The notes under the pieces are model-generated. The model was not told where the DNA came from, made no database searches, and saw only the letters and a list, made by a program, of their open reading frames with translations. 48,554 bases of DNA from Cloacibacillus sp. An23 (lineage in GTDB: Bacteria; Synergistota; Synergistia; Synergistales; Synergistaceae): assembly GCF_002159945.1 (NCBI RefSeq), contig NZ_NFJQ01000015.1, forward strand, positions 1 to 48,554, read 5' to 3'. How positions within the stretch are numbered: position 1 is the stretch's first letter; each line of letters opens with the position of its first letter. This document shows, one piece after another, positions 15,064 through 28,196 of this stretch. The translations under genes and the position numbers were made by a program.

Positions 15064-16314
15064 ATGTACATAAAACGCGCGGCAGAAGAAACGGTAAAAA
15101 AATTGTCGAATATGTTTCCTGTTCTGCTTGTCACAGGGCCCAGACAGGTCGGGAAAACTACACTGTTACAGAAGCTTATGGAGGACGATCGAAAATATGT
15201 GACGCTAGACGACCCTGACGTTCGGTATCTAGCAAAGCGCGATCCCGCTCTTTTTATGCAGCGCTATACTCCGCCGGTGCTCATTGACGAAATTCAGTAC
15301 GCTACGGAGCTACTGCCGTATATAAAGATGAGCGCCGACCGCTCAGGACGCAAGGGAGATTTCTGGCTTACCGGCTCGCAGGTATTCCGGCTTATGAAGA
15401 ACGTAAGCGAAAGCCTGGCTGGGCGCGTAGGCATCGTCAATCTGCTGGGACTCTCGGACGCGGAGATATACGGATACGAAAGCACTCCGTACACCACAGA
15501 CGCCGCGCGCCTTATGAAACGAGCCGCTGGTATGAAAGAAAGAGGCCTGAACGAAATCTACGCCAGAATATTCAAAGGGTCGATGCCGGCGCTCTACGCA
15601 GGTGACACAGACTGGGAAGTGTATTATAGGTCTTACGTAGAGACATACTTGCAGCGCGATATCCGCGACCTTTCACAGGTGGCGGACGAGATGCAGTTTT
15701 ATAATTTTATGACGATAACTGCCGCGCACACGTCGAAGCCGGTCGTATATGAGGAGTTTGCGGGCGCAGCAGGCATAAGCGCGCCGACTGCCAAGAAATG
15801 GCTCTCTCTGCTCGTATCGTCTCACATTATCGCGCTCGTTCAGCCATACTCGAACAACATCTTAAAGCGCGCGGTAAAAATGCCGCTCATGCATTTCCTG
15901 GACACCGGGCTGGCGGCGTACCTTTTAAAATGGGGAAGCCCTGAAGTCCTTGAACGCGGCATAATGTCTGGGGTTTTTTTTGAAAGCTACGTATTCTCCG
16001 AAATTTACAAAAGCTATCTGAACGCCGGGAAGGAGCCGCCTGTCTATTACTACAGAGACAAAGACCAGAAGGAAATAGACATCCTGCTCTATCAGAACGG
16101 TACGATATTTCCCATCGAAATAAAGAAAGCCGCTTCGCCAGGCAAGAGCTCAATAAAAAATTTCTCCGTGCTGGCTCCGCTGGATAATCCGGAACGCTTC
16201 GGAGGAATGCGCGAGCTCAAGACCGCAATAGGCCAAGGCAACGTAATTTGCATGTCGAAGAACCTGCTGCCCATCGACGAAAAAAACTGGTACGTCCCGG
16301 CCTGGCTCGTGTAA
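15064..16314 (+). CDS. AAA-type ATPase with DUF4143 domain
   Basis: A 416-aa protein of the widespread AAA_14/DUF4143 group. Walker A is GPRQVGKTT (25-33), Walker B is VLIDEIQ (72-78) and the sensor region is FWLTGSQ. The mid-part carries SYVETYLQRDIRDL, the DUF4143 entry motif. The C-terminal part has HFLDTGLAAYLL, FESYVFSEI, YYRDKDQKEIDILL and IEIKKA, a PD-(D/E)xK nuclease-like core (E, D, E-x-K). These genes are common, often horizontally spread and of unproven role. The ribosome site before the ATG is weak despite the strong promoter. No partner gene is next to it. Confidence 0.86.
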   Translation: MYIKRAAEETVKKLSNMFPVLLVTGPRQVGKTTLLQKLMEDDRKYVTLDDPDVRYLAKRDPALFMQRYTPPVLIDEIQYATELLPYIKMSADRSGRKGDFWLTGSQVFRLMKNVSESLAGRVGIVNLLGLSDAEIYGYESTPYTTDAARLMKRAAGMKERGLNEIYARIFKGSMPALYAGDTDWEVYYRSYVETYLQRDIRDLSQVADEMQFYNFMTITAAHTSKPVVYEEFAGAAGISAPTAKKWLSLLVSSHIIALVQPYSNNILKRAVKMPLMHFLDTGLAAYLLKWGSPEVLERGIMSGVFFESYVFSEIYKSYLNAGKEPPVYYYRDKDQKEIDILLYQNGTIFPIEIKKAASPGKSSIKNFSVLAPLDNPERFGGMRELKTAIGQGNVICMSKNLLPIDEKNWYVPAWLV

Positions 16315-16406: not shown

Positions 16407-16916
16407 TTAGTCTTTCGGTTTTACGTCGATTGCGAACTTCGGTCCCTTTACAAAATCTGCAATCGTATTGCGCAGCTCATACAACGACAAGATTGCAAAG
16501 GAGACAGGAATCGCCGAATATGTGTACCGATAAGGGATCCTAAGGGCCGGCGTCATGCGTGAGCCTGCGACATTCACGAAATCTATGCCTATGAGCATAA
16601 CGATCACCGACGCGGCGAGCATAAGAATCTGCGAAACAAATGTCAGAGTGCGGTTCGCGCTGTGCGGCATCATCTCCTTAAAAACTACGATGCTCACATG
16701 CTCGCGCTGTACAGCTATTATGGTCGTGCTGAGCAGGCAGAACCACACTAGAAGTATCTTAAGCAGCTCTTCGGACCATGTCAGCGAATCGTTGAGCACA
16801 TAGCGGCAGAATACGTGCGCCCAAGCGACGACCAGCATTACTAGCCCAATGGCGATTATCACCGCCAGCACTACATTGTAGACTGCTTTTATAAGCTTAT
16901 CGAGAGCAGCCAGCAT
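16407..16916 (-). CDS. TRAP transporter small permease (DctQ family)
   Basis: A 169-aa membrane protein with four predicted helices (near 12-34, 50-66, 87-107 and 132-150). RYVLNDSLTWSEELLKILLVW is typical of DctQ. It pairs with the large permease to form the Na+-coupled carrier of a tripartite transporter. It is the last gene of the operon, 17 bases after the DctP stop; GAAGGAAG precedes ATG 16916. Substrate not shown; see the divergent kinase and enolase-like genes. Confidence 0.9.
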   Translation of the reverse strand: MLAALDKLIKAVYNVVLAVIIAIGLVMLVVAWAHVFCRYVLNDSLTWSEELLKILLVWFCLLSTTIIAVQREHVSIVVFKEMMPHSANRTLTFVSQILMLAASVIVMLIGIDFVNVAGSRMTPALRIPYRYTYSAIPVSFAILSLYELRNTIADFVKGPKFAIDVKPKD

Positions 16917-16933
16917 AGCTTACGCACTTCCTT

Positions 16934-17962
16934 CTAATTCATCCCCTTGAGAATATCTGCTTTAACCGCTTTGATGTCGGAAAGGAATTTATCGACGTAT
17001 TCAGCCCCAAGCTCTTTCTTTGCTCTTTCTATAACGACAGGCTGCGCCGCGTTCCGTATCTCTGCTAACGCCGACGGTTCGAGACTGTTGACTTCCATGC
17101 CCCTTTTCTTAAGCTCTGCAAGTATCACGTCCTCGCGGCCCGCGTTTACGAAGCGGCTGTAGTTCTGTCCAAGAATCGCACCGACGGCGAGAGCCTCCTG
17201 ATATTCGGGCGGCAGCTTTTCAAACCAGCGGAGATTGGCGACAAGCGGCATTCCGTCGTAAATGTGCCCGGTGAGCGAGACATATTTCTGTACTTCGTAC
17301 ATGTTGAGGTCCCACATATTGGAAATCGGGTTTTCCTGTCCGTCTACGATTTTCTGCTGCATCGAAAGATAGAGTTCGGAGAAGGGGACGGGCGTCGGGT
17401 TTGCGCCGAGGGCTTCAAAGCTCGCCATGTGCATCGGGTTCTGCATCGTTCTTATCTTAAGCCCTTTGAAATCGGCAAGCTTTGTTATAGGTTTCACGGA
17501 AGAGGTAACATGACGGAAGCCGTTTTCCATGTAGGCGAGCCCTTTCATGCCGCATTCTTCGAGCGAGGCGAGCAGATCCTGCCCGACTTTGCTGTCCATC
17601 ACCATCCACGCTTCATTGTAATTATTGAAAAGGAACGGAATATCGAGGACGAAGAAATTTTTCTGGAACGTGGTGACGGGCGCCAGAGACGCGGTCGCCA
17701 TTTCGAGGGAGCCAGTCTGCACCTGTGCGAGTGACTCTTCCTCGGCGCCGAGCTGGCTGTTCGGGAAGATGTTGATTACGAAATTGCCGTCGGTTTTGTC
17801 CTCGACGTACTGCTTCATTACAAGAAGGCCTATCGTCTGCGGATGCGTCATCGAGTTGCAGGCGGAGACGCGCGCCGTGATTTTTTCAGCGGCGAAGGCG
17901 CATACAGACGTCAACATGACGCAGGCAAGAGTTAAAAGTGCAGCTATCGCTTTTCTTCTCAT
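16934..17962 (-). CDS. TRAP transporter substrate-binding protein (DctP family)
   Basis: A 342-aa periplasmic solute receptor. A signal peptide ends near residue 24 (CAFA-AE). The mature part has the DctP features FPNSQLGAEEESLAQVQTG, KGLKIRTMQNP with the Arg that pairs with the substrate carboxylate, and VDGQENPISNM. Such receptors bind organic acids or amino acids. The gene lies between DctM (37 bases) and DctQ (17 bases). The conserved carboxylate-binding Arg suggests an acid substrate, whose identity is not evident. Confidence 0.93.
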   Translation of the reverse strand: MRRKAIAALLTLACVMLTSVCAFAAEKITARVSACNSMTHPQTIGLLVMKQYVEDKTDGNFVINIFPNSQLGAEEESLAQVQTGSLEMATASLAPVTTFQKNFFVLDIPFLFNNYNEAWMVMDSKVGQDLLASLEECGMKGLAYMENGFRHVTSSVKPITKLADFKGLKIRTMQNPMHMASFEALGANPTPVPFSELYLSMQQKIVDGQENPISNMWDLNMYEVQKYVSLTGHIYDGMPLVANLRWFEKLPPEYQEALAVGAILGQNYSRFVNAGREDVILAELKKRGMEVNSLEPSALAEIRNAAQPVVIERAKKELGAEYVDKFLSDIKAVKADILKGMN

Positions 17963-17999
17963 TTTCAGAAATAACTCCTCTCAGTAATATTCTATGCTG

Positions 18000-19274
18000 C
18001 TAGTAACCCGCCAGGCGAGGCAGGAAAAGCACCAGTTTCGGGCAGAAAGTGACGAGCAGAAGGACGCATATCGTGGCGGCGATAAATGGTATCGCTTCCT
18101 TGACAGTGTCCTCTATTCGCACCCCCGCCACAGGGCTTGTGACGAAAAGTGTTATTCCAAAGGGCGGCGTCGCGAGTCCTACGACCAGGTTGATGCAGAT
18201 GACGAGCCCTATATGAAGAGGGTCTATGCCGAGCTCCCACGCTATAGGCGCGATAAGCGGGGCGAGAATGACTATCGAGGCATAGTCGTCCATGAAACAA
18301 CCGACGATAAGGAGCAGGATGTTGACGCAGAGCAGGAAAAGCCACCACGGCATCGTCGAAAGCGGGCCGATGAGGCTGTCGAGCAGACGCTCGTTCGCGA
18401 TGGCCCAGGCCATAACGCTTCCTGCTCCAGCAAGCAGCAGGACGAGCCCGGTCGTCGAAGCCGCGTCAAGGAACATATCCGGGATGTCCTTGAGCTTGAC
18501 GGAGCGGTTGACGCAGAAGGCGAGGAATCCGCTGTAAAGCACGGCAACAGCCGATGCCTCGGTTATCGTGAATATACCGCTGAATATGCCTCCGAGAATG
18601 ATGACCGGCAGCAGCAGAGACGGCAACGCCTTCTTGGTCGCCGCTATTTTCTGTTCGGCCGTAGCCTTGCCGTGAGCTTTGTACCCGCGCTTCGTCGCTA
18701 TCCTGTTGGCAATTACGATCTGCACCCCTGCGATAAGCAGGGCCGGGACTATCGCAGCCATAAATAGTCCGGCAATGGACGTTTTGCCGACGGACATGCA
18801 GTAAAGGATCATCAGGACGCTCGGCGGCATTATCGGGCCGAGAAGTGAAGCCGACGACATGACACCGGCGGAAAACGCAGCGGAATAGCCCTCCTTCTTC
18901 ATCATAGGAATGAGAAAGACTCCGAGCGAAGCGGCGGCTGCGACCGCGAGGCCGACGATCGACCCCATAAGGAGGCTAGCGCCTATAGTGACCATCGCTA
19001 TCGCTCCGTTGAAACGCCCGAAGAAAGCATTTACGAAGTCGATGAGCGATTCAAGCAGCTTCCCCTTGAGCATGAGCTGTCCCGTAAGTACGAAGAACGG
19101 AACTGCCAGGAAGGAGAAGCTGTTCATTCCCTCATACATCTTCTGCGTGATGACGATGACAGGAAAACCGCTGACAAGAAGATATGCCAGCGAGCTTATA
19201 ATCAGGTTATAAGCTATAGGCAGCCCTATCACCATCAAAAACAGAAAACAAATGACCAGCGTCGCTAGTTCCAT
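18000..19274 (-). CDS. TRAP transporter large permease (DctM family)
   Basis: A 424-aa carrier subunit with about twelve hydrophobic segments. DctM hallmarks include IGLPIAYNLIISSLAYLL, FSFLAVPFFVLTGQLM, GVMSSASLLGPIMPPS, GLAVAAAASLGVFLIP and VGLATPPFGITLFV. It performs sodium-driven uptake of the ligand delivered by DctP. ATG 19274 has AAGGAG nine bases before it. Its position directly after the cyclodeaminase-like gene suggests that the transported compound is also that enzyme's substrate, or feeds the same pathway. Confidence 0.94.
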   Translation of the reverse strand: MELATLVICFLFLMVIGLPIAYNLIISSLAYLLVSGFPVIVITQKMYEGMNSFSFLAVPFFVLTGQLMLKGKLLESLIDFVNAFFGRFNGAIAMVTIGASLLMGSIVGLAVAAAASLGVFLIPMMKKEGYSAAFSAGVMSSASLLGPIMPPSVLMILYCMSVGKTSIAGLFMAAIVPALLIAGVQIVIANRIATKRGYKAHGKATAEQKIAATKKALPSLLLPVIILGGIFSGIFTITEASAVAVLYSGFLAFCVNRSVKLKDIPDMFLDAASTTGLVLLLAGAGSVMAWAIANERLLDSLIGPLSTMPWWLFLLCVNILLLIVGCFMDDYASIVILAPLIAPIAWELGIDPLHIGLVICINLVVGLATPPFGITLFVTSPVAGVRIEDTVKEAIPFIAATICVLLLVTFCPKLVLFLPRLAGY

Positions 19275-19307
19275 TTAATTGAACTCCTTCGGCAAAATTT
19301 CACCTTG

Positions 19308-20429
19308 TTACTTTATATACGGCTCGTCCCACAGCAGGAGCTTCTGGCCTACGCCCTGTTTCAGCGCGCGCTGGTAGAGCTCGAAGCCGCATGCGACGTC
19401 GAATACCGCCATTCCGCAGGCGACGAAGATTATCGTCTCGTCGTCGCTCGTGCGTCCGGGCTTGTTGCCGAGTATGACGTTTCCGATGTCGGTGGAGTCC
19501 TCAAGCTTCGGAAGCTTGCCTTCGTCGATGAGCGTGTATATCGGGCCGCCGATGACTCCGGCGTAATATCCGGGGACGTCGCCGGAGGCGTAGGCTTCTT
19601 CGACGTAGGCTTCGTGAAGCTTGATGTTGTCGTAGACTATCTTGCTCTTGAGCCAGAGGTCGTCGTCGCCCTTAGCGGGGCCGGTGAGCATGACGAGAGC
19701 GCCTTTTTTAATCCACGAGCTCTCGATGTGGAGCGGCTTGAGGCGCGACGCGGCGACGGTGACGAGGTCGGCCTCCTTGAGCGCCTCCGGCAGTTCCGTC
19801 GTGGCGGAGGCTTCGAGGCCGAATTCGCTCTTGGCCCAGTCGGCGAAGGCCTGCGCCTTATCGAGGAATATGTCGTAGGTTATGATCTTCTTGAGGTTCG
19901 GGGCCTGGGTTACGATGTGGCGGAAGCAGGACTTGTTTATCGGGCCGCAGCCTATAACGGCGCAGACTTCGGAATCCTTGCGCGCGAGGTGGCGCGTGGC
20001 GACGGCGGGGATGGCTCCCGTGCGCGTCGCGCTGAGTATGTTCGCCGACATGTGGCAGAGGGGCGCGCCAGTGTCCTTATCGTTGATGAGGACGGTCAGT
20101 ATCGAGCGCGGGAGCCCCTTCGCGGTGTTCGCGGCGTTCGAGCCGTACCACTTGTTGCCGCAGACATCGAAGCGGCCGCCGAGATAGGCCGGCATTGCGA
20201 AGAAGCGGCGGTCGGGGCCGGCGACCGGCATATTCGGGAAGGGAGATTCCTTCGGGAAGATTATCCCCATGCCGTGGCTGTTGTGGTTCGGCCCGCCCAT
20301 GAGGTAGTCGCCCTTGGCGAGGAGCCCGAAGACCTCTTCGCAGACGTCTACCCACGCCGGAGCGTCGGTGATACCGAGCTTGATGGTATCCGGCTCAGAA
20401 AGATAGATAAACTCAATCTTGTTGCTCAT
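19308..20429 (-). CDS. Ornithine cyclodeaminase / mu-crystallin family protein
   Basis: A 373-aa NAD(P)-binding enzyme of the OCD superfamily, first gene of the TRAP operon. It shows the N-terminal substrate part with RFFAMPAYLGGRFDVCGNKW and ANTAKGLPRS, the ATRTGAIPAVATRHLA turn, and the Rossmann motif AVIGCGPINKSC. It is longer than bacterial ornithine cyclodeaminases (about 330-350). NCBI uses the name tyramine oxidase subunit B for some relatives, and I recall that name without being able to test the match. Relatives catalyse ornithine deamination, imine reduction or amino-acid dehydrogenation. AAGGAGAG lies before ATG 20429. The reaction here is unknown. Confidence 0.8.
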   Translation of the reverse strand: MSNKIEFIYLSEPDTIKLGITDAPAWVDVCEEVFGLLAKGDYLMGGPNHNSHGMGIIFPKESPFPNMPVAGPDRRFFAMPAYLGGRFDVCGNKWYGSNAANTAKGLPRSILTVLINDKDTGAPLCHMSANILSATRTGAIPAVATRHLARKDSEVCAVIGCGPINKSCFRHIVTQAPNLKKIITYDIFLDKAQAFADWAKSEFGLEASATTELPEALKEADLVTVAASRLKPLHIESSWIKKGALVMLTGPAKGDDDLWLKSKIVYDNIKLHEAYVEEAYASGDVPGYYAGVIGGPIYTLIDEGKLPKLEDSTDIGNVILGNKPGRTSDDETIIFVACGMAVFDVACGFELYQRALKQGVGQKLLLWDEPYIK

Positions 20430-20592
20430 TCAGCATCTCTCCTTATTGCGATCAGTTTTCAGCTTTTGATAAAAGCTATATAACAATCAAGCGGCGCCGC
20501 CCTCCTTAACACGGCAAAAAGACAACAAAACCACTGAACTGTCTTTTATAACAGCCTTAAGAATGTATTCACAATAAGTTCTGTCAAACAGT

Positions 20593-20610
20593 ATAGGCAT
20601 AGGAATAGGT
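20593..20610 (+). repeat. Three tandem ATAGGN hexamers
   Basis: ATAGGC, ATAGGA and ATAGGT follow one another without gaps. They lie in the shared control region about 60 bases before the AraC-gene -10. They could be a binding site for the regulator, which is only inference from position. Confidence 0.45.
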
Positions 20611-20661
20611 ATTTTCTATTAGCTTATTAGCCCGTTTTATAAAAATATTAACTTGTAAGTA

Positions 20662-20670
20662 TGGTACAAT
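20662..20670 (+). promoter_or_regulatory. Extended -10 promoter of the AraC-type regulator
   Basis: TGG followed by TACAAT (20665-20670) forms an extended -10, which can work with a poor -35. A start near 20677 excludes the in-frame ATG at 20661 and supports the GTG at 20736 as the true start. Confidence 0.6.
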
Positions 20671-20735
20671 ATGCTCAACGTGTAAGGGGTTGTGTGTTTA
20701 TTTTTAATTCTCCAGAAAAGGAGAGTGGATTTTCT

Positions 20736-21677
20736 GTGATAAATTACCGCCCCATACTTGTAGACAGCACGCTCCAGGAGCTCACGGAGCACGGCGATTT
20801 CGCCTTCCCGATGTCTATGGACGAGCAGCGCGTCTCCGACAGCTATGTCGCCTTCGTTCCGCACTGGCACTACGAGATACAAATCTCTGCGGTCGTAAAG
20901 GGCTCCGTGATTTTCAGGACGCCGGAAAATGAATTCCGGCTTGAAAAGGGCGAGGCCGTTTTCTTCAACAGCGGCTGCATACACGAGGCCGTCCCGACCG
21001 AGGACAAGGACGGCGTCTACACATGCGTCAATTTTCACCCTAAGGTCGTTTACGGCTACGCCGAAAGTCTGCTGCGCCAGGACTATGTCAATCCAGTCCT
21101 CTACTCCAACGAGCTGCAGGCGATAGTTTTCCGGGACGAGCCGTGGCATCTCGAGGTGCGTAAGCTCATGGATTCGCTCATAGCGGTCAACCGCGCGGAG
21201 CGCTTCGGCTACGAGCTTGAGATGTACTCCATCATACTGAAGATATGGCACCTCATCGTGCAGAACAACGAAAGCCTAATCTCGGCCTCCTCGCTCGTAT
21301 CCTTCGCGGACAAACAGAGGATAAGGTCGCTCACGCACTTCATACACAAGAACTATATGGAGCGCATATCCCTGACCGAGATAGCGGAGTCGGACCACAT
21401 CAGCAAAGGCGAATGCTGCCGCGTCTTCCAGCGCGTACTCGGCACAACGCCATTCGCATATCTGATAAACTACCGCATACACCAGGGCATGAAGATGCTG
21501 GCGACGACCGACCACAACATTTCGGAGATAGCGCAGAGCGTAGGCTTCGGCTCCGGCAGCTACTTCACGGAATGCTTCAAGAAGATGATGCACTGCTCGC
21601 CGATGCAGTACCGCAAGCATATTCGCAAGGAAGGCAAATCGGAGGATGCGCCGCGGCCCGAGGAAGACTATTCGTAA
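20736..21677 (+). CDS. AraC family transcriptional regulator with cupin sensor
   Basis: A 313-aa regulator. The N-terminal half is a cupin sensor (FVPHWHYEIQISAVVKGSV, then EFRLEKGEAVFFNSGCIHEA with the PHWHYE metal or ligand motif). The C-terminal 100 residues hold two helix-turn-helix units (ISLTEIAESDHISKGECCRV and NISEIAQSVGFGSGSYFTEC). The GTG start at 20736 has AAGGAGAG 10-12 bases before it; ATG 20661 is in frame but overlaps the promoter. It diverges from the OCD/TRAP operon and precedes the kinase and enolase-like genes, so it probably activates one or both sides when the substrate is present. Confidence 0.9.
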   Translation: MINYRPILVDSTLQELTEHGDFAFPMSMDEQRVSDSYVAFVPHWHYEIQISAVVKGSVIFRTPENEFRLEKGEAVFFNSGCIHEAVPTEDKDGVYTCVNFHPKVVYGYAESLLRQDYVNPVLYSNELQAIVFRDEPWHLEVRKLMDSLIAVNRAERFGYELEMYSIILKIWHLIVQNNESLISASSLVSFADKQRIRSLTHFIHKNYMERISLTEIAESDHISKGECCRVFQRVLGTTPFAYLINYRIHQGMKMLATTDHNISEIAQSVGFGSGSYFTECFKKMMHCSPMQYRKHIRKEGKSEDAPRPEEDYS

Positions 21678-21710
21678 TATTGCCCTCAACTATCGACATA
21701 TTGACGCTCC

Positions 21711-21786
21711 CGTTGACTTTGTTAAATAAAGCTTTTTATACTGGATTCGCACTCTGGACATAATAAAGCTTCGTACAAAGCCAACG
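21711..21786. repeat. Inverted repeat around the kinase promoter and ribosome site
   Basis: CGTTGACTTTGT (21711-21722) and ACAAAGCCAACG (21775-21786) are inverted copies with 11 of 12 positions matching, 52 bases apart. The first arm contains the -35 TTGACT; the second ends at the ribosome site GGGAGG of the kinase gene. AATAAAGCTT also occurs twice directly (21725-21734, 21762-21771). The repeats suggest paired operator sites. Confidence 0.55.
21713..21742 (+). promoter_or_regulatory. Promoter of the kinase / enolase-like operon
   Basis: TTGACT (21713-21718) and TATACT (21737-21742) are 18 bases apart. A start near 21749 would give a leader of about 50 bases before the ATG at 21801. The gene pair can therefore be transcribed apart from the araC-type gene that ends 36 bases before the -35. 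Confidence 0.62.
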
Positions 21787-21800
21787 GGAGGTTTTTATAT

Positions 21801-23204
21801 ATGCAGTGGAAAATAAGGAACCGCGAGCAGCTTTTATCCCACGGAGACACGGAGTCAAGACGCATCGTCCTCGACATAGCCGACAGGACGCTCCAGAAGC
21901 TTGACGCTAAGGAGCGCATCAAGAGCATAATGAGCCTGGACGGCGATATTCTGCGCATCGGGACGAAGAGCTGGGACCTTTCCAAGAAAAAGAACGTCTA
22001 TCTGCTCGGCGCCGGCAAGGCATGCAACCACATGGCGATGGCGGTGGACGAGATACTCGGAGACAGGCTGACGCGCGGCATAGCGATCGTAAAAATATCG
22101 GAGCCGACGGACGTTTTCAATAAAACCGAAGTTTACGTCGGCGGGCATCCGCTCCCCAACGAAGAGGGCTACAGGGCCTGCAGGATAATACTCGACATCG
22201 TGGACAACTCCGGACCGGACGACCTGTTTATATGCGTCATCAGCGGAGGCAGCTCCGCGCTGATGAGCTGCCCGATAGACGGGATCTCGCTCGAAGACGA
22301 GATAAAGGTGACGGACGTGATGCTCAAGTCCGGGGCGAACATATACGAGATAAACGCGATACGCCGCCACATATCGCAGATGAACGGCGGCATGCTGGCG
22401 AAGCGTATAGAGGCGCGCGGCGCTGAGCTGATAGGTTTCGGCATCAGCGACGCCGTGGGCACGCCTCCGACAGGCGACATCGGCATCCCTTACGCAAATT
22501 ACAAGAGCACGCCGATGGGGCCGGACGCGACGACGCTCGACGACGCGCGGCGCGTGATACGCGATTACGACGTCGCGGACAGGCTGCCGAAGAACGTCGT
22601 GGACTACCTGATGAACGCGGGCCCCGAGTGCGAGACGCCGAAGGCCTTCCCGAACAACACGTACTACTTAATAAACACGCTGCCAGACTCATGCGCCTAC
22701 GCGAAAAAAATTGCGGAAGAGATGGGCGTTCCCGCCGTCATACTCACGTCGTTCCTCGAGGGCGAGAGCCGCGACGTAGGCACGATGCTCGCCTCAGTGG
22801 CGCGCGAGATACAGGCCTACGGCAACCCGGTCAAGGCTCCGTGCGTGCTGCTCGCCTCCGGCGAAGCGACGACGCAGATCCTCGACAACAGCACGATAAC
22901 GGGCCACGGCGGCCCGTCGCAGGAGGAGACGCTGAGCTTCGCGCTATCGGCCGCTAAGGCCAGGGGGATATGCCTGCTCTCGATAGATTCAGAGGGCACC
23001 GACGGCACGACCGGCGTCGCGGGCGGCATCACCGACTCGACCAGCTACAAGGCGGCTCTTGAAAAGGGAATCGACGTACACGCAGCGCTGCGCGGACACG
23101 CGAGCTTCGAGGCGCTCGACGCGATAGGAGACGCGGTCTTCACAGGAAACACTGGAACCAACCTCTGCGACTTCAACGTAATGTACGTTCCGAAAATAGA
23201 TTAG
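21801..23204 (+). CDS. DUF4147/MOFRL kinase, divergent glycerate 2-kinase family member
   Basis: A 467-aa kinase of the type-2 glycerate kinase family. The N-terminal DUF4147 domain shows LLGAGKA (68-74), GGHPLPNEEG (114-123), ISGGSSAL (147-154) and NAIRRHISQMNGGMLA (185-200). The C-terminal MOFRL part shows ASGEATTQ, GHGGPSQEE (368-376) and DSEGTDGTTGVAGG (396-409). From memory, family norms are SDVVGDD..IASGPT, KGGRLA and GRGGRNQE; here these read SDAVGTPPTGD plus YKSTPMGPD, NGGMLA and GHGGPSQEE. The substrate is therefore probably not plain glycerate. GGGAGG precedes the ATG. The enolase-like gene follows after 12 bases, so the two act together. Confidence 0.84.
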   Translation: MQWKIRNREQLLSHGDTESRRIVLDIADRTLQKLDAKERIKSIMSLDGDILRIGTKSWDLSKKKNVYLLGAGKACNHMAMAVDEILGDRLTRGIAIVKISEPTDVFNKTEVYVGGHPLPNEEGYRACRIILDIVDNSGPDDLFICVISGGSSALMSCPIDGISLEDEIKVTDVMLKSGANIYEINAIRRHISQMNGGMLAKRIEARGAELIGFGISDAVGTPPTGDIGIPYANYKSTPMGPDATTLDDARRVIRDYDVADRLPKNVVDYLMNAGPECETPKAFPNNTYYLINTLPDSCAYAKKIAEEMGVPAVILTSFLEGESRDVGTMLASVAREIQAYGNPVKAPCVLLASGEATTQILDNSTITGHGGPSQEETLSFALSAAKARGICLLSIDSEGTDGTTGVAGGITDSTSYKAALEKGIDVHAALRGHASFEALDAIGDAVFTGNTGTNLCDFNVMYVPKID

Positions 23205-23216
23205 GAGGACGCGAAA

Positions 23217-24488
23217 ATGTCAAAGATAACGGAAGTCAAGGCAAGACAGCTAATCGACTGCAAATGCCGCCCGATGGTGGAGGTAGACGTAATAACCGAA
23301 AAAGGCTCGCTCGGACGCGGAAGCGCGCCGACCGGAAGTTCCGTCGGAATGTACGAGTCGTTCGTGCTGCGCGACAACGACCCCAAAGAATACAACGGCA
23401 TGAGCGTCCACAAGGCCGTCGAAAACGTGAACAAGATAATAGCCCCGGCGCTCATAGGCAAAGAAGTTAGCGGGCAGGAAGAAATAGACAAAATAATGAT
23501 AGAGCTCGACGGCACGCCGGACAAACATAATCTCGGCGGAAACGCGATATACAGCGCATCGATAGCGGCTTTCCGCGCCGCCGCAGGAGACGCCGGCAAA
23601 ACGCTCTACGACTATATAGCGGGCGAGCCGGTCAAAGACGTGCCGATACCGTCATTCAACGTCATCAACGGCGGGAAATATCCCGGACTGACGCAGGCCT
23701 TCAACGAATTCATCGTGATGCCCTACAAGGCCGATTCCATATACGAAGCCGTCGAGATCGCCGTCAAGGTGTTCCAGAAGCTCGGCCCCGTCATCAAGAA
23801 CTATACGAAAAAAGAGCCGGGCGTCGGCGGATCATACGGCTGGATCGCGCCGTCGGAGGACCCGGAGGTGCTGTTATCGCTCATGCAGGAGGCGATAGAC
23901 GCGTGCGGCTACACCGGCAAATGCGCTTTTGCGCTCGACTGCGCCTCCAGCGAGATGTACGACGCCGAGACTAAGACGTACTACCTTAACGGCAAGCGCC
24001 TTTCCTCCGACGAGCTCATAGGCTACGTCAAAGGGCTTACGGAAAGATGGAATTTCGTCTTCATCGAGGACATGCTCGACGAAAACGACTGGGATGGCTA
24101 CGAAAAGGCCCACAGAGAGATAACGAGGACTCTCATCATAGCAGACGACTTCACCGCGACAAGCAAGGAACGCATAGCGCGCGCCTGCTCGACGAACTCG
24201 ATAGACGGCTTCATCCTCAAGCCGAACCAGGTCGGCACGATAAGCGAAGCGCTCGACGCATACCGCTTTGCGCGCGAGCGCGGACTGCTCGCGATACCTT
24301 CCGGACGCTCGGGCGGCGTCATCGGCGACGTCGTGATGGACCTCGCGGTCGGCCTCGACGTGAGCTTTATCAAGAACGGCTGCCCGCGCTCCGGCGAGAG
24401 GATAGACAAACTGAATTTCCTGATGCGCGTCGCCGACCTGAACCCCGGCTGCGTGATGTCGGACATTTCTTCGCTCGTGCGCTTCTAG
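23217..24488 (+). CDS. Enolase-superfamily protein lacking canonical catalytic residues
   Basis: A 423-aa protein aligning end to end with enolase (432 aa in E. coli). Kept are the Ser-rich loop TGSSVG (39-44), Glu164 (NEF), the metal ligands Asp241 (LDCASSE), Glu284 (FIEDM) and Asp310 or 311, the catalytic Lys335 (KPNQVGT), phosphate-binding Arg364-Ser365 and Lys398. Changed are GG(S/E)HA to GGKYPG (152-157), GDEGG to GGSYG (204-208) and SHRSGE to SGRSGG (362-367). This removes the two His and the Glu that act on the leaving hydroxyl in true enolase. It probably handles another 2-phospho-acid made by the adjacent kinase. Automatic naming as phosphopyruvate hydratase would be misleading. GGAGG precedes the ATG. 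Confidence 0.85.
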   Translation: MSKITEVKARQLIDCKCRPMVEVDVITEKGSLGRGSAPTGSSVGMYESFVLRDNDPKEYNGMSVHKAVENVNKIIAPALIGKEVSGQEEIDKIMIELDGTPDKHNLGGNAIYSASIAAFRAAAGDAGKTLYDYIAGEPVKDVPIPSFNVINGGKYPGLTQAFNEFIVMPYKADSIYEAVEIAVKVFQKLGPVIKNYTKKEPGVGGSYGWIAPSEDPEVLLSLMQEAIDACGYTGKCAFALDCASSEMYDAETKTYYLNGKRLSSDELIGYVKGLTERWNFVFIEDMLDENDWDGYEKAHREITRTLIIADDFTATSKERIARACSTNSIDGFILKPNQVGTISEALDAYRFARERGLLAIPSGRSGGVIGDVVMDLAVGLDVSFIKNGCPRSGERIDKLNFLMRVADLNPGCVMSDISSLVRF

Positions 24489-24514
24489 GAGAAGCGCGCC
24501 TTCCACACGAAAAG

Positions 24515-24540
24515 GCCGGAGCGACGGCTCCGGCTTTTTT
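24515..24540 (+). terminator. Terminator of the kinase / enolase-like operon
   Basis: An eight-bp GC stem (24515-24522 with 24527-24534), four-base loop and six T residues (24535-24540), 27 bases after the stop at 24488. On the minus strand it is followed by CTTTT, so it may also stop the C69 peptidase transcript. Confidence 0.9.
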
Positions 24541-24704: not shown

Positions 24705-26078
24705 TCACCACAGCCTCATCCCGACGCGCCTGCAGTACTCCTCCAGAAATTCTTTTTTCGTGCCGGCCAGGCCGCCGCGGGATTTTATCATTGCGCTTAT
24801 TCTTTCGAAGTTTTTCAGCGCAAACGATGCGGCTTTGTTCGCGCACTCTTCCATGACTGAGCAGAGGACTTCTGCGGCTTCTTCGGAAAGGCCGCGCCTT
24901 GCCAGACGGGCCGCCTCGCGTTCGGCTCTCGCGGCCTGCGTTTCGATTTCCTCTTCGAGCGCGACTCCGCCCACGCGGATGAACGGCGCGTATCTGTCGT
25001 AGTCGGCCGATACCGCGGCGGCGAGCCTTTCAAAGAGCCACCAGAGCGAGCTTTCACTGAACTTTTCGCCGCTTTCGCTCATAAGCGGCGGCAGAGGGCC
25101 GGCGCAGTACGCCGGTATGTAGAGCGACAAGCATGGCAGCGAGCAGGCGAAGCGCATCGCAGGGCCCGCGCCTTCCGCCCAGCGGCATATCATGGAGGCG
25201 GCCGTCTGGCTCGACTCCGGCGTCATCGCGTGCATACAGACCGACGGGAAGACGCCGAAGGATACGCCGAAGCGCGGCTCTAGGAGCGTGCCCTCGAAGT
25301 GGTCGCGCAGGATGGATTTTACCGTAACGGCGTCGAAGGGGTCTTTTTCGGCTTCGAGCATGGAGCTCAGCCGCCGCAGCCTCGGCACGGCGCCGGTCTG
25401 TCTTTGCGCCGGGGCCGTGTAGGCCTTCGCGAAGTTAAACCGCTCGCCTTCCGCGAGCCAGCCTTTGTCCCGCGCATATTTTTCCAGCGCCTCGCTGCAT
25501 TCGTCCGGTTTCGCGATCGTATAGCAGTTGCTTATCGCGCACGGCTCTTCTATGCGTTTGGCGGCCCACATGCGCCCAGCCGTCTCGAGCAGCCAAATTT
25601 CCTCCCTGTCGGCTATAAGAAAAGAATTTTCGTAACGTTTGTCCTCGAGCACGCTCGCGTTGGCGTTCTGCCCGTATTCCTCAAGCAGCGCCGTTATGAC
25701 GCGCATCGCCTCGCGGGCAGTCGCTCCTCGCTCGAGGCCGAGGCGCAGCATATCCATGCCAAGCAGCGCGTTTCCGCGTCCCGTCTCGGCGGCTTTGCTG
25801 CCCTGCGCCTCGTTGCCTATCATCACGCCTTTTTCGTTGACGCCCATCTCGAAGCCCCACATCCAGTAGGGTCTGGAGCCGAGCACGCCGTATGTCTCGC
25901 CGGTCTGCGGGACGGATATGTAGGTACATTCGACTTTCTCGCCGGCTCCGTGCTTCGCGCCGGGCGACCATGTCAGCGCCTGCGCCTCGCCGAGCGGCCT
26001 GTCGCTGTTTTTCGCCAGAAGATTGCTCCCGCCCAGGCATCTCCCCGCCGGAAGCGCGAATGTGTCGCATGAAAGCAT
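24705..26078 (-). CDS. Secernin-like C69 family peptidase
   Basis: A 457-aa N-terminal-nucleophile hydrolase. The start MLSCDTF places Cys4 as the likely nucleophile after trimming, and AKNSDRPLGEAQ (22-33), KVECTYISVPQ, SRPYWMWGFEMGVNEKGV, LLGMDMLRLGLERG and LLETAGRMWAAKRI match the secernin branch of family C69. Relatives are dipeptidases. A cytoplasmic location is likely, as there is no signal sequence. The C-terminal 120 residues are charged and helical. It would support peptide use in an amino-acid fermenter. A -10 lies at 26132-26137. Confidence 0.88.
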   Translation of the reverse strand: MLSCDTFALPAGRCLGGSNLLAKNSDRPLGEAQALTWSPGAKHGAGEKVECTYISVPQTGETYGVLGSRPYWMWGFEMGVNEKGVMIGNEAQGSKAAETGRGNALLGMDMLRLGLERGATAREAMRVITALLEEYGQNANASVLEDKRYENSFLIADREEIWLLETAGRMWAAKRIEEPCAISNCYTIAKPDECSEALEKYARDKGWLAEGERFNFAKAYTAPAQRQTGAVPRLRRLSSMLEAEKDPFDAVTVKSILRDHFEGTLLEPRFGVSFGVFPSVCMHAMTPESSQTAASMICRWAEGAGPAMRFACSLPCLSLYIPAYCAGPLPPLMSESGEKFSESSLWWLFERLAAAVSADYDRYAPFIRVGGVALEEEIETQAARAEREAARLARRGLSEEAAEVLCSVMEECANKAASFALKNFERISAMIKSRGGLAGTKKEFLEEYCRRVGMRLW

Positions 26079-26485: not shown

Positions 26486-27853
26486 CTACTTTCCGAAAAC
26501 TTCCCTCGCGGCCTTGCGCGAGATTTCGATTCCGAGTTTGATGTCCTCGAGCGGGACGTTGAGCGCCGGGCGGAAGCGGACGGTGTTGCTGCCGCAGCCG
26601 AGGATGAGCATGTGGTTGGCCTGGCAGGCTTTGAGGAACTTGTTGCGCAGCTCTTCAGAGCATATGTCGTAGGCGCACATGAGTCCTTTGCCGCGGACGT
26701 TGCGGATATACTTCGGGAACTCTGCCTCGAGCTCCTTGAGTCCGTTATAGAGCGCCGGGCCGGCGACGTTCGCGACGTAGTCGAGAATTTTGTCGTCGCG
26801 GTAGATTTCAAGGTATCTCTGCGCGCGCACCATATCTACCACGGTTCCGCCCCACGTCGAGTTGAGGCGGCTCGAGACCTTGAAGCAGTTGTTCTCCACT
26901 TCGTCGATGCGCGGTCCGGCGATGACGCCGCATATCTGCGCCTTCTTGCCGAAGGAGAAGAGGTCCGGCTTGACCGGAGCGTGGTGCTCCCACGCCCACA
27001 TCTTGCCGGTGATGCCCATGCCGCACTGGACTTCGTCGAAGATGAGCAGCATTTCGTTCTCGTCGCATATCTGGCGGAGCTGCTTGAAGAACTCCGTGCG
27101 GAAATGGTTGTCGCCGCCCTCGCCCTGTATGGTCTCGATGATGACGGCGGCTATTCCGTCGGGATCGTTCATCAGAACGTGTTTGATCTGCTTGATGGCC
27201 TGCGCCTCGAGCCACTCGACTTCGCCGAGATGCTCTTCGAGCGGGAAGGTGATCTTCGGGTTGATGATGCGCGGCCACTCGGTGAATTTCGCGTAGCGCT
27301 GGTGCTTGTTCGGGTCGTTGGTGTTCGTCACGGAGAGAGTGTATCCGCTGCGCCCGTGGAACGCCTCGTTGAAGTGCATTATCTTCGTGCCTTTGCGCCC
27401 GTCGTAGGCTTCGCCAGGGGTTATCTTGCCCTTCTGAAGAAGTTTCTGAGTCTTCCAGTCCATCGCAACTTTGAAGGTGTTTTCGACGGCGAGCGTCCCG
27501 TAGTCTATCAGGAACAGGTGCTCGTAGCCTTCGGGCACGGCTACCTCGCCGAAGGTCTTGACGAATTCGGCCATCTCCTGAGTGTAGATGTCGGAGTTGG
27601 CGACTTTGTTGATAGCTGCGCGGAATATCTTTTCCTTGAACTCTTCGTTGTCGAGCTTCGGGTGGTTCATCCCGAAGGGGGCCGACGCGAAGAACGTATA
27701 GAAGTCGAGCCAGTCCGCCCCGCTGACGGAATCTATGACGTGACTGCCCTTTGATTTCTCCATGTCGATTACGATGTCAAAACCGTCGCGGAGCAGCAGC
27801 TTTTCTATCGTCGAGAATACGTCCTTTGGCGCTACGGAACAATTCGATGCCAT
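26486..27853 (-). CDS. lat: L-lysine 6-aminotransferase
   Basis: A 455-aa class III PLP aminotransferase that moves the epsilon amino group of lysine to 2-oxoglutarate, giving 2-aminoadipate semialdehyde and glutamate. Family motifs are FYTFFASAPFGMNHPK, NEAFHGRSGYTLSVTNT, IIETIQGEGGDNHF, LIFDEVQCGMG, the PLP lysine in FSFGKKAQICG and LNSTWGGT. The usual GGALAVENALK is DYGTLAVENTFK here. ATG 27853 is chosen because GGGAGG lies eight bases before it; ATG 27859 would leave only two. It starts lysine breakdown or cyclic-imine formation. It is monocistronic, with a promoter at 27932-27960. Confidence 0.9.
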   Translation of the reverse strand: MASNCSVAPKDVFSTIEKLLLRDGFDIVIDMEKSKGSHVIDSVSGADWLDFYTFFASAPFGMNHPKLDNEEFKEKIFRAAINKVANSDIYTQEMAEFVKTFGEVAVPEGYEHLFLIDYGTLAVENTFKVAMDWKTQKLLQKGKITPGEAYDGRKGTKIMHFNEAFHGRSGYTLSVTNTNDPNKHQRYAKFTEWPRIINPKITFPLEEHLGEVEWLEAQAIKQIKHVLMNDPDGIAAVIIETIQGEGGDNHFRTEFFKQLRQICDENEMLLIFDEVQCGMGITGKMWAWEHHAPVKPDLFSFGKKAQICGVIAGPRIDEVENNCFKVSSRLNSTWGGTVVDMVRAQRYLEIYRDDKILDYVANVAGPALYNGLKELEAEFPKYIRNVRGKGLMCAYDICSEELRNKFLKACQANHMLILGCGSNTVRFRPALNVPLEDIKLGIEISRKAAREVFGK

Positions 27854-28196
27854 TTGCATAACCTCCCAATGTTTAGTTAGACTGTTTAGACAATGCTGGG
27901 AATAGTTCGTTCAAAACTCCACTGCACTTTTAGTCTACATTCAAAATACAATAAAATCAAGGGTTAATTTCCAGACTTCTACTATTATTTTTTGATAAAA
28001 TATTATATTTTTCTTTATAGAATAATATTTATTTTATAAATTTAATTTTACTGCCCGCCTCTTGATGCGCGGCGGAGCGCTGTCGTATCCGCTGTGCGGA
28101 AAGCCGCCGTTCGCAAGCTTTCGTCTTATGGAGCGTTTTTCGCGGCGAGGGTAAAAGTAACAGCGGCCCCTTACAGGGCCGCTGTGTCGTTTTTTC
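27854..28196. other. AT-rich region upstream of the lysine aminotransferase gene
   Basis: A 343-base non-coding stretch. It holds the lat promoter, an AAATATTAT/ATAATATTT inverted pair (27998-28006, 28022-28030) inside a very AT-rich block (27960-28050), and the terminator at 28160-28185. No gene is supported. Confidence 0.55.
27932..27960 (-). promoter_or_regulatory. Promoter of the lysine aminotransferase gene
   Basis: On the minus strand TTGATT (27960-27955) and TAGACT (27937-27932) are 17 bases apart. The leader to ATG 27853 would be about 70 bases and contains repeated TTAGAC/TTTAGAC motifs near 27874-27891. Confidence 0.58.

Follow-up and report, generated by a model that had tools for sequence, protein, structure and literature searches.

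A candidate catabolic module pairing a glycerate-kinase-like protein with an enolase-fold protein of altered active site in Cloacibacillus sp. An23

A group of seven genes on contig NZ_NFJQ01000015.1 of Cloacibacillus sp. An23 was analysed as a candidate catabolic module, in which a kinase (KIN) and an enolase-fold protein (ENO) are accompanied by an ornithine cyclodeaminase (OCD)-family enzyme, an AraC-type regulator and a tripartite ATP-independent periplasmic (TRAP) importer. The whole 48,554-nucleotide (nt) stretch of DNA analysed is referred to as the window. Open reading frames (ORFs) in the window were taken as gene calls, domains were assigned at the Pfam cut-offs and subfamilies with NCBIfam/TIGR models. 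All seven genes that a previous sequence-only reading had placed here were recovered in the same positions and orientations, and all their Pfam domains are complete and above cut-off. The features are:

16407..16916, minus strand: DctQ, TRAP small permease (PF04290, E 1.9e-23)
16934..17962, minus strand: DctP, TRAP solute-binding protein (PF03480, E 3.8e-88)
18000..19274, minus strand: DctM, TRAP large permease (PF06808, E 1.4e-109)
19308..20429, minus strand: OCD, ornithine cyclodeaminase/mu-crystallin-family NAD(P) enzyme (PF02423, OCD_Mu_crystall; NCBIfam subfamily NF004848)
20430..20660, no strand: divergent OCD/AraC intergenic region of 231 nt, probably regulatory
20661..21677, plus strand: AraC-type regulator with cupin sensor domain (PF02311, AraC_binding, and PF12833, HTH_18)
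21801..23204, plus strand: KIN, a DUF4147/MOFRL kinase resembling class II glycerate 2-kinases, of a distinct subfamily (PF13660 and PF05161)
23217..24488, plus strand: ENO, enolase-fold protein with an altered active site (PF03952 and PF00113)

Every one of the seven ORFs starts with ATG, and most are preceded by a Shine-Dalgarno-like sequence. The OCD, DctM, DctP and DctQ genes run leftward with gaps of 17–37 nt, and the AraC, KIN and ENO genes run rightward with gaps of 123 nt (AraC-KIN) and 12 nt (KIN-ENO). This arrangement is found complete in another Synergistota genome (G065, locus L120; L and G numbers are our handles for loci and genomes) with 72–87% identity, or 61% for AraC. The nearest named relative is the metagenome-assembled genome (MAG) of Candidatus Caccocola faecipullorum (L040), whose KIN and ENO are both 95% identical to those of the window.

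In yeast enolase, K345 takes the C2 proton while the metals hold the carboxylate, the second metal and the phosphate are held with the help of S39 and R374, and the departing C3 hydroxide is served by E211 with H373. An alignment and a tree were made with 89 full-length ENO members, yeast enolase and 26 ordinary Synergistota enolases, using yeast numbering. ENO contains both enolase domains (PF03952, 150.8 bits; PF00113, 198.5 bits) and passes the cut-off of TIGR01060 (361.8 bits, cut-off 300). It has in common with enolase (EC 4.2.1.11) the fold, the Mg ligands D246, E295 and D320, and K345, K396, E168 and R374, all kept in 89/89 members, as well as S39, kept in 84 (Thr in the other five). 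In contrast, H159, Q167, E211 and H373, which were all present in 26/26 ordinary enolases, were found in none of the 89: H159 is replaced by Tyr (67), Asn (19) or others (3), Q167 by Asn (87) or Ser (2), E211 by Ser (88) or Ala (1), and H373 by Gly (89). The position of G212 is occupied by a near-invariant aromatic residue (Tyr in 87, Phe in two), and D210 is Arg or Lys in 16/89. In the window protein the substitutes for yeast E211, G212, H159, Q167 and H373 are S206, Y207, Y155, N163 and G363, respectively. Identity to ordinary enolases is 33–39%, versus at least 54% within the family, which forms a clade with full support and a long branch. Judged from the alignment and the tree, ENO is a distinct clade and not a spare enolase, in which the predicted enolate-forming and phosphate-holding parts are retained and the C3 side is remodelled by residues that are smaller or neutral, plus one new aromatic.

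Ordinary glycerate catabolism was considered as an explanation, with KIN acting as a D-glycerate 2-kinase and ENO as a second phosphopyruvate hydratase that converts 2-phosphoglycerate into phosphoenolpyruvate (PEP). KIN has both the DUF4147 (202.3 bits) and the MOFRL (87.9 bits) domains and matches the NCBIfam glycerate 2-kinase models, although under their equivalog cut-offs (184 vs 550 and 149 vs 670 bits), a weak test given that these models represent narrow thermophile groups. Its identity to stand-alone Synergistota glycerate kinases is 30–36%, and 60–95% to its orthologues in other phyla. GGSS and GNTGTN replace the GGGS and GPTGTN of the stand-alone enzymes, and a family-specific inserted loop is present (the TPPTGDIGIPYANYK region). 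Class II glycerate 2-kinases are described by the motif D-X(0,2)-G-X(0,1)-D-[GP]-X(4)-[APS]-[ACDGST] (PMC2063504), which DSEGTDGTTGVAGG in the window KIN resembles. The module is thus like the shunt formed by MOFRL glycerate 2-kinase, enolase and pyruvate kinase (the lower non-phosphorylative Entner-Doudoroff pathway) in its kinase family, its enolase fold, the order of the steps and the pyruvate kinase gene that adjoins it in three hosts. It is unlike that shunt in that ENO has none of the four residues that every ordinary enolase in the comparison has, KIN belongs to a separate subfamily marked by the loop and the two motifs, the genes are adjacent or fused, and there is an OCD partner. The TIGR01060 score and the kinase models speak for glycerate, the pyruvate kinase and D-2-hydroxyacid dehydrogenase neighbours described below would fit it too, and the window's genome has no ordinary enolase, its other copy being an altered fusion. 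Against it stand the four absent residues, the long-branched clade and the divergent kinase motifs, and OCD would be left unexplained. Because of the residue losses in ENO, ordinary glycerate use is unlikely.

For the linkage analysis, an ENO profile was run against 84,980 prokaryote genomes, giving 101 confirmed relatives, the best 80 of which were examined. With the window itself, two further loci from Synergistota and seven from plasmids, they make a set of 90 loci, picked by ENO, that spans at least six phyla: Synergistota, Firmicutes, Spirochaetes (Treponema), Proteobacteria, Planctomycetota and Actinobacteria. Hosts include gut Firmicutes, Synergistota and Treponema, Planctomycetota, rhizobia and Burkholderia, and Rhizobiaceae plasmids, with ENO identities of 54–95% and KIN identities of 65–95%. 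Several ORF clusters of GC-rich loci were shadow frames (c3, probably also c18 and c27), and the module genes there were located by tblastn. A same-strand KIN lies immediately 5' of ENO in 85 of the 90 loci, the gap, measured between aligned ends, being 15–231 nt (median 26 nt). In eight loci (L042, L043, L044, L045, L048, L052, L057 and L056) the two are a single ORF of about 895 amino acids, that of L056 being cut by the contig end. The exceptions to the order are L116, with KIN on the opposite strand, L049 and L104, where KIN is cut by the contig edge, and the Mycobacterium loci L117 and L119, where KIN was not found. In these two Mycobacterium loci a lone ENO of the family, accompanied by neither KIN nor OCD, adjoins a two-component system. 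OCD was present in 75 of the 90 loci. Eight KIN-carrying genomes whose locus has no OCD were checked; five have it elsewhere in the genome and three have it nowhere (L046, L114, L090). A same-type DctM (at least 60% identity) was found in 15 loci, 14 of which also have OCD, and an AraC homologue in ten. The pairwise divergences of KIN, ENO and OCD correlate over 66 loci with r = 0.90–0.92 (OCD-ENO, r = 0.91), shared ancestry not being removed from these values.

Because the 90 loci had been selected by ENO, samples that were not chosen for linkage weigh more. Module-type ENO, KIN and OCD were found in the same 3 of 149 Synergistota genomes. Among 250 Lachnospiraceae genomes KIN and ENO were found in the same seven (chance about 1e-13 if independent), and OCD (at least 56% identity) in five of these seven and in one other; it was not detected in the KIN-ENO-carrying genomes G195 and G365. 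ENO (at least 60% identity) was found in nine of 72,556 plasmid records, and KIN in the same nine. In G195, one KIN is followed by two tandem ENO copies (L154:8987-11571, minus strand), with no OCD, near tripartite tricarboxylate-type transporter genes and a mandelate-racemase-family gene.

These data bear on whether OCD with TRAP and KIN with ENO might be two independent pathways under one AraC regulator. The two halves are divergently transcribed in the window and several relatives, and the genomes named above that have KIN and ENO and in which OCD is absent (L046, L114, L090) or was not detected (G195, G365) would agree with such a separation. However, OCD lies in the KIN-ENO operon, in the same direction, across Proteobacteria, Planctomycetota and Actinobacteria, it accompanies KIN-ENO in most loci, and its divergence tracks that of ENO. 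Two separate pathways are therefore very unlikely, and the earlier proposal that both halves form one functional unit is borne out by the relatives, in which they are linked.

Other kinase-enolase pairings were also found, designated types B and C, the module's own being type A. An ordinary enolase was not found in the window's genome (G000), which has two altered copies only. The second is part of a divergent kinase-enolase fusion (type B), an 867-amino-acid ORF on contig C3 (L143:14252-16855, minus strand) with an altered active site in its enolase part (H373L, H159F). It lies beside a tripartite tricarboxylate-type transporter (judged by eye) and a GntR-like gene, and a second OCD (46% identity) is about 8 kb away. 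A companion at L143:16858-18153, LarA-like by eye, was dropped because it had no Pfam match. Type C (L136-L139, four other Synergistota) has the order ENO-KIN, followed 27–39 nt on by a D-2-hydroxyacid dehydrogenase, and its loci also hold LarA-type and TRAP genes where the contig is long enough; OCD was not detected in these loci. Its enolase keeps E211 and carries H373E and H159L. In G130, the TRAP beside the type C form is 55–64% identical to that of the window. The kinases of types B and C also have GNTGTN and an altered GGG loop. In the tree, the type A enolases and those of type C do not form one group, and the branch of the type B row is too long for it to be placed. Eight of the sampled genomes of Synergistota family f1 gave no match to enolase; lower glycolysis may be missing or replaced in these genomes and in G000.

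Several neighbours bear on the function of the module. A pyruvate kinase gene lies 3' of it in three unrelated genomes, at 11 nt (L050), 116 nt (L109) and 169 nt (L082), which fits the earlier suggestion that ATP could be gained through pyruvate kinase-type chemistry. Ten type A loci have a homologue of the LarA-type nickel-pincer 2-hydroxyacid racemase, either inside the TRAP operon or next to the module and no more than about 3.5 kb away, and three type C loci have one at the same range. A D-2-hydroxyacid dehydrogenase was found 324 nt away in L059, 182 nt away in L116 and in the module operon of L046, a genome with no OCD; 2-hydroxyacid dehydrogenase matches of 29–38% identity at more than 2 kb were regarded as distant and not counted as linked. 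Glutamate dehydrogenase, with its glutamate-specific Lys and Ser kept, is present in 16 loci, pointing to ammonia handling. HyuAB hydantoinase-type, xylose-isomerase-like, proline-racemase-family, shikimate-dehydrogenase-like and DadA-like genes recur in Proteobacteria loci, many of which also have amino-acid ATP-binding cassette (ABC) transporters, and M20/YgeY hydrolases recur in Firmicutes and Synergistota loci. The presence of hydantoinase- and M20-type hydrolases suggests that the substrate occurs in N-acyl or hydantoin form. A chemoreceptor gene beside the module in the rhizobia L038, L101 and L090 suggests chemotaxis to its substrate. In the window itself, an AAA_14/DUF4143 ATPase gene (15064-16314, plus strand) adjoins the TRAP operon and is convergent with it, and a C69-family dipeptidase gene (24705-26078, minus strand) and an L-lysine 6-aminotransferase gene (26486-27859, minus strand; TIGR03251 above cut-off) lie 3' of ENO on the opposite strand.

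OCD scored 444.1 bits with NF004848 (cut-off 362) and 170.2 bits with the SbnB model TIGR03944, under its cut-off of 326.9. The name "tyramine oxidase subunit B", which NF004848 confers automatically, was rejected as a guide to function, and no tyramine-degradation gene was recognised near the module. The module OCD is separate from a group of relatives (43–50% identity) found with amine-dehydrogenase-type genes. In the Lachnospiraceae loci L148-L153 such relatives are in an operon with a DAO-type flavin adenine dinucleotide (FAD) oxidoreductase, small iron-sulfur-type and FAD/NAD genes and an amino-acid permease, which resembles a secondary-amine amino-acid dehydrogenase complex and has no KIN-ENO. 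In another reading, KIN might phosphorylate an amino acid, N-substituted or cyclic, on its beta-hydroxyl, ENO take the alpha proton and expel phosphate to give an enamine or imine, and OCD reduce the imine to a saturated amino acid. The OCD family does include ketimine reductases and relatives such as SbnB, its distant members keep the company just described, the amino-acid ABC transporters, proline-racemase-family and DadA-like genes of many Proteobacterial loci would suit an amino acid, and phosphate as leaving group fits the loss of the hydroxide-leaving acid. However, such a route does not predict the pyruvate kinase, LarA and D-2-hydroxyacid dehydrogenase neighbours, ENO retains S39 and R374, the residues that in enolase hold the second metal and the phosphate on C2, and type C loci have a hydroxyacid dehydrogenase and no detected OCD. 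We regard it as unlikely.

Evidence on the imported compound came from DctP, which meets the cut-off of TIGR00787 (264.9 bits, cut-off 175). The nearest solved structure is 4p47, followed by a group including 4p9k/4pak, 4pdd and 4pdh. 4P47 is an open form and most related structures hold pantoate or erythronate; in 4P47-type proteins Arg152, Arg173, Asn213 and the acidic residue 76 bind the carboxylate and hydroxyl (2024, PMC11668362). Their equivalents in the window DctP, R150, R171, N211 and E74, are invariant across the module DctPs (alignment A2). The predicted DctP model was poor (mean predicted local distance difference test score 66), and its fold search adds little beyond sequence. The kinship of DctP to pantoate/erythronate binders supports a hydroxylated carboxylate as predicted ligand and, together with the LarA-type and D-2-hydroxyacid dehydrogenase neighbours, the 2-hydroxy acid of the earlier scheme. 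At other module loci the transporter is of another kind: a different TRAP system, an ABC, MFS or GPH-type transporter or, as judged by eye, an NCS1- or amino-acid-permease-like one. Uptake is therefore interchangeable.

Taken together, the data give about an even chance to a catabolic module for a C3-substituted 2-hydroxy acid and the matching alpha-amino acid, in which C2 would be phosphorylated and ENO would yield a PEP-type enol phosphate. The substrate would have the form X-CH2-CH(OH)-COO- or R-CH(X)-CH(OH)-COO-. TRAP, or other transporters in other hosts, would import the acid. The amino acid would enter the pathway through OCD, being deaminated in an NAD(P)-dependent reaction towards the 2-oxo or 2-hydroxy acid; other hosts could obtain the correct 2-hydroxy enantiomer from a LarA-type racemase and/or a D-2-hydroxyacid dehydrogenase. 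KIN would phosphorylate the hydroxyl at C2, in the manner of class II glycerate 2-kinases acting on glycerate, and would act as a pair with ENO, sometimes in one polypeptide. ENO may bind the product like 2-phosphoglycerate, with the carboxylate on Mg and the phosphate on S39/R374, after which its lysine would take the C2 proton and the C3 substituent would be expelled, giving PEP or a PEP analogue; pyruvate kinase, whose gene is linked in three hosts, could then recover ATP. Since Ser and Gly stand in place of E211 and H373, the substituent on C3 is probably larger than OH and departs without the help of that acid, or else Tyr207 gives the proton. The chemistry of the sequence-only reading is thus mostly upheld by these comparisons, its phosphorylation followed by enolase-type elimination to an enol phosphate being supported by KIN-ENO adjacency and fusion, the retained enolate machinery and the nearby pyruvate kinase genes. 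It was silent on the lost leaving-group-side residues of ENO, on the fusion and on the breadth of the module.

Several points weigh against this pathway. Its basis is sequence (families, residue pattern, linkage and fusion), from which all reactions and substrates are deduced, and the roles of the ENO residues are transferred from yeast enolase rather than read from a structure of ENO. LarA, the hydroxyacid dehydrogenase and pyruvate kinase are found in a minority of loci only. HyuAB, the proline-racemase family, the M20/YgeY hydrolases and sugar ABC transporters are unexplained by the scheme, and OCD may be an imine reductase instead, because its relatives of 43–50% identity accompany genes of the FAD secondary-amine dehydrogenase type, with KIN-ENO absent.

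ComA, in coenzyme M synthesis, interconverts PEP plus a nucleophile and 2-phospho-3-X-lactate. The ENO step resembles a possible reverse of this reaction, although ENO is from a different protein family than ComA (phosphosulfolactate synthase) and the module carries no evidence of a sulfonate substrate. As a special case of the proposed pathway, the substrates could be 3-sulfolactate and cysteate, a matching hydroxy and amino acid pair, KIN giving 2-phospho-3-sulfolactate and ENO releasing sulfite and PEP. Sulfite is an anionic leaving group that needs no acid, and the Arg or Lys at D210 in some members would agree with it, but the annotated recurrent neighbour families included no recognisable sulfite dehydrogenase, sulfite exporter or known sulfonate gene, and the recurrent amide/hydantoin hydrolases do not fit; this case is highly improbable. 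Isoserine, with ammonia leaving, was weakly disfavoured, given that the lost acidic residues and the Arg/Lys of some members speak against a cationic leaving group.

There is a real chance that the lyase reaction of ENO is new, the module being rated a variant of the glycerate-kinase/enolase route. More tentatively, ENO might found a new lyase class with the enolase fold, whose leaving group is something other than water (sulfite, an amine, a thiol, or an aryl or sugar oxygen) and whose substrate, a 2-phospho-3-X-propanoate, is made by a dedicated, sometimes fused, kinase. This would be a general way to cleave hydroxy and amino acids with a beta substituent, in which C2 is phosphorylated, X is eliminated and the phosphate is retained in PEP. 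It would comprise at least two pairings that diverged separately (types A and C), the fused type B being unplaceable. In the open-access literature no paper was found on a glycerate-kinase/enolase pair with an OCD partner; the term "DUF4147" appeared in a single paper on another subject, and "tyramine oxidase subunit B" did not appear. As one kinase and one lyase are involved, naturally fused in some hosts, the pathway could easily be tested in vitro with a PEP/pyruvate-kinase readout. The module probably feeds a hydroxy or amino acid into central metabolism, and because it is found in gut bacteria, Planctomycetota, rhizobia and Burkholderia, and on Rhizobiaceae plasmids, its substrate is probably common and derived from the diet or from plants. 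Automatic annotation would name ENO an enolase because it passes the TIGR01060 cut-off, though residues needed for enolase chemistry are absent; analyses of MAGs and metabolic models may therefore count it wrongly towards glycolysis, and the genome of Cloacibacillus sp. An23 would seem to hold two enolases, neither of them ordinary.

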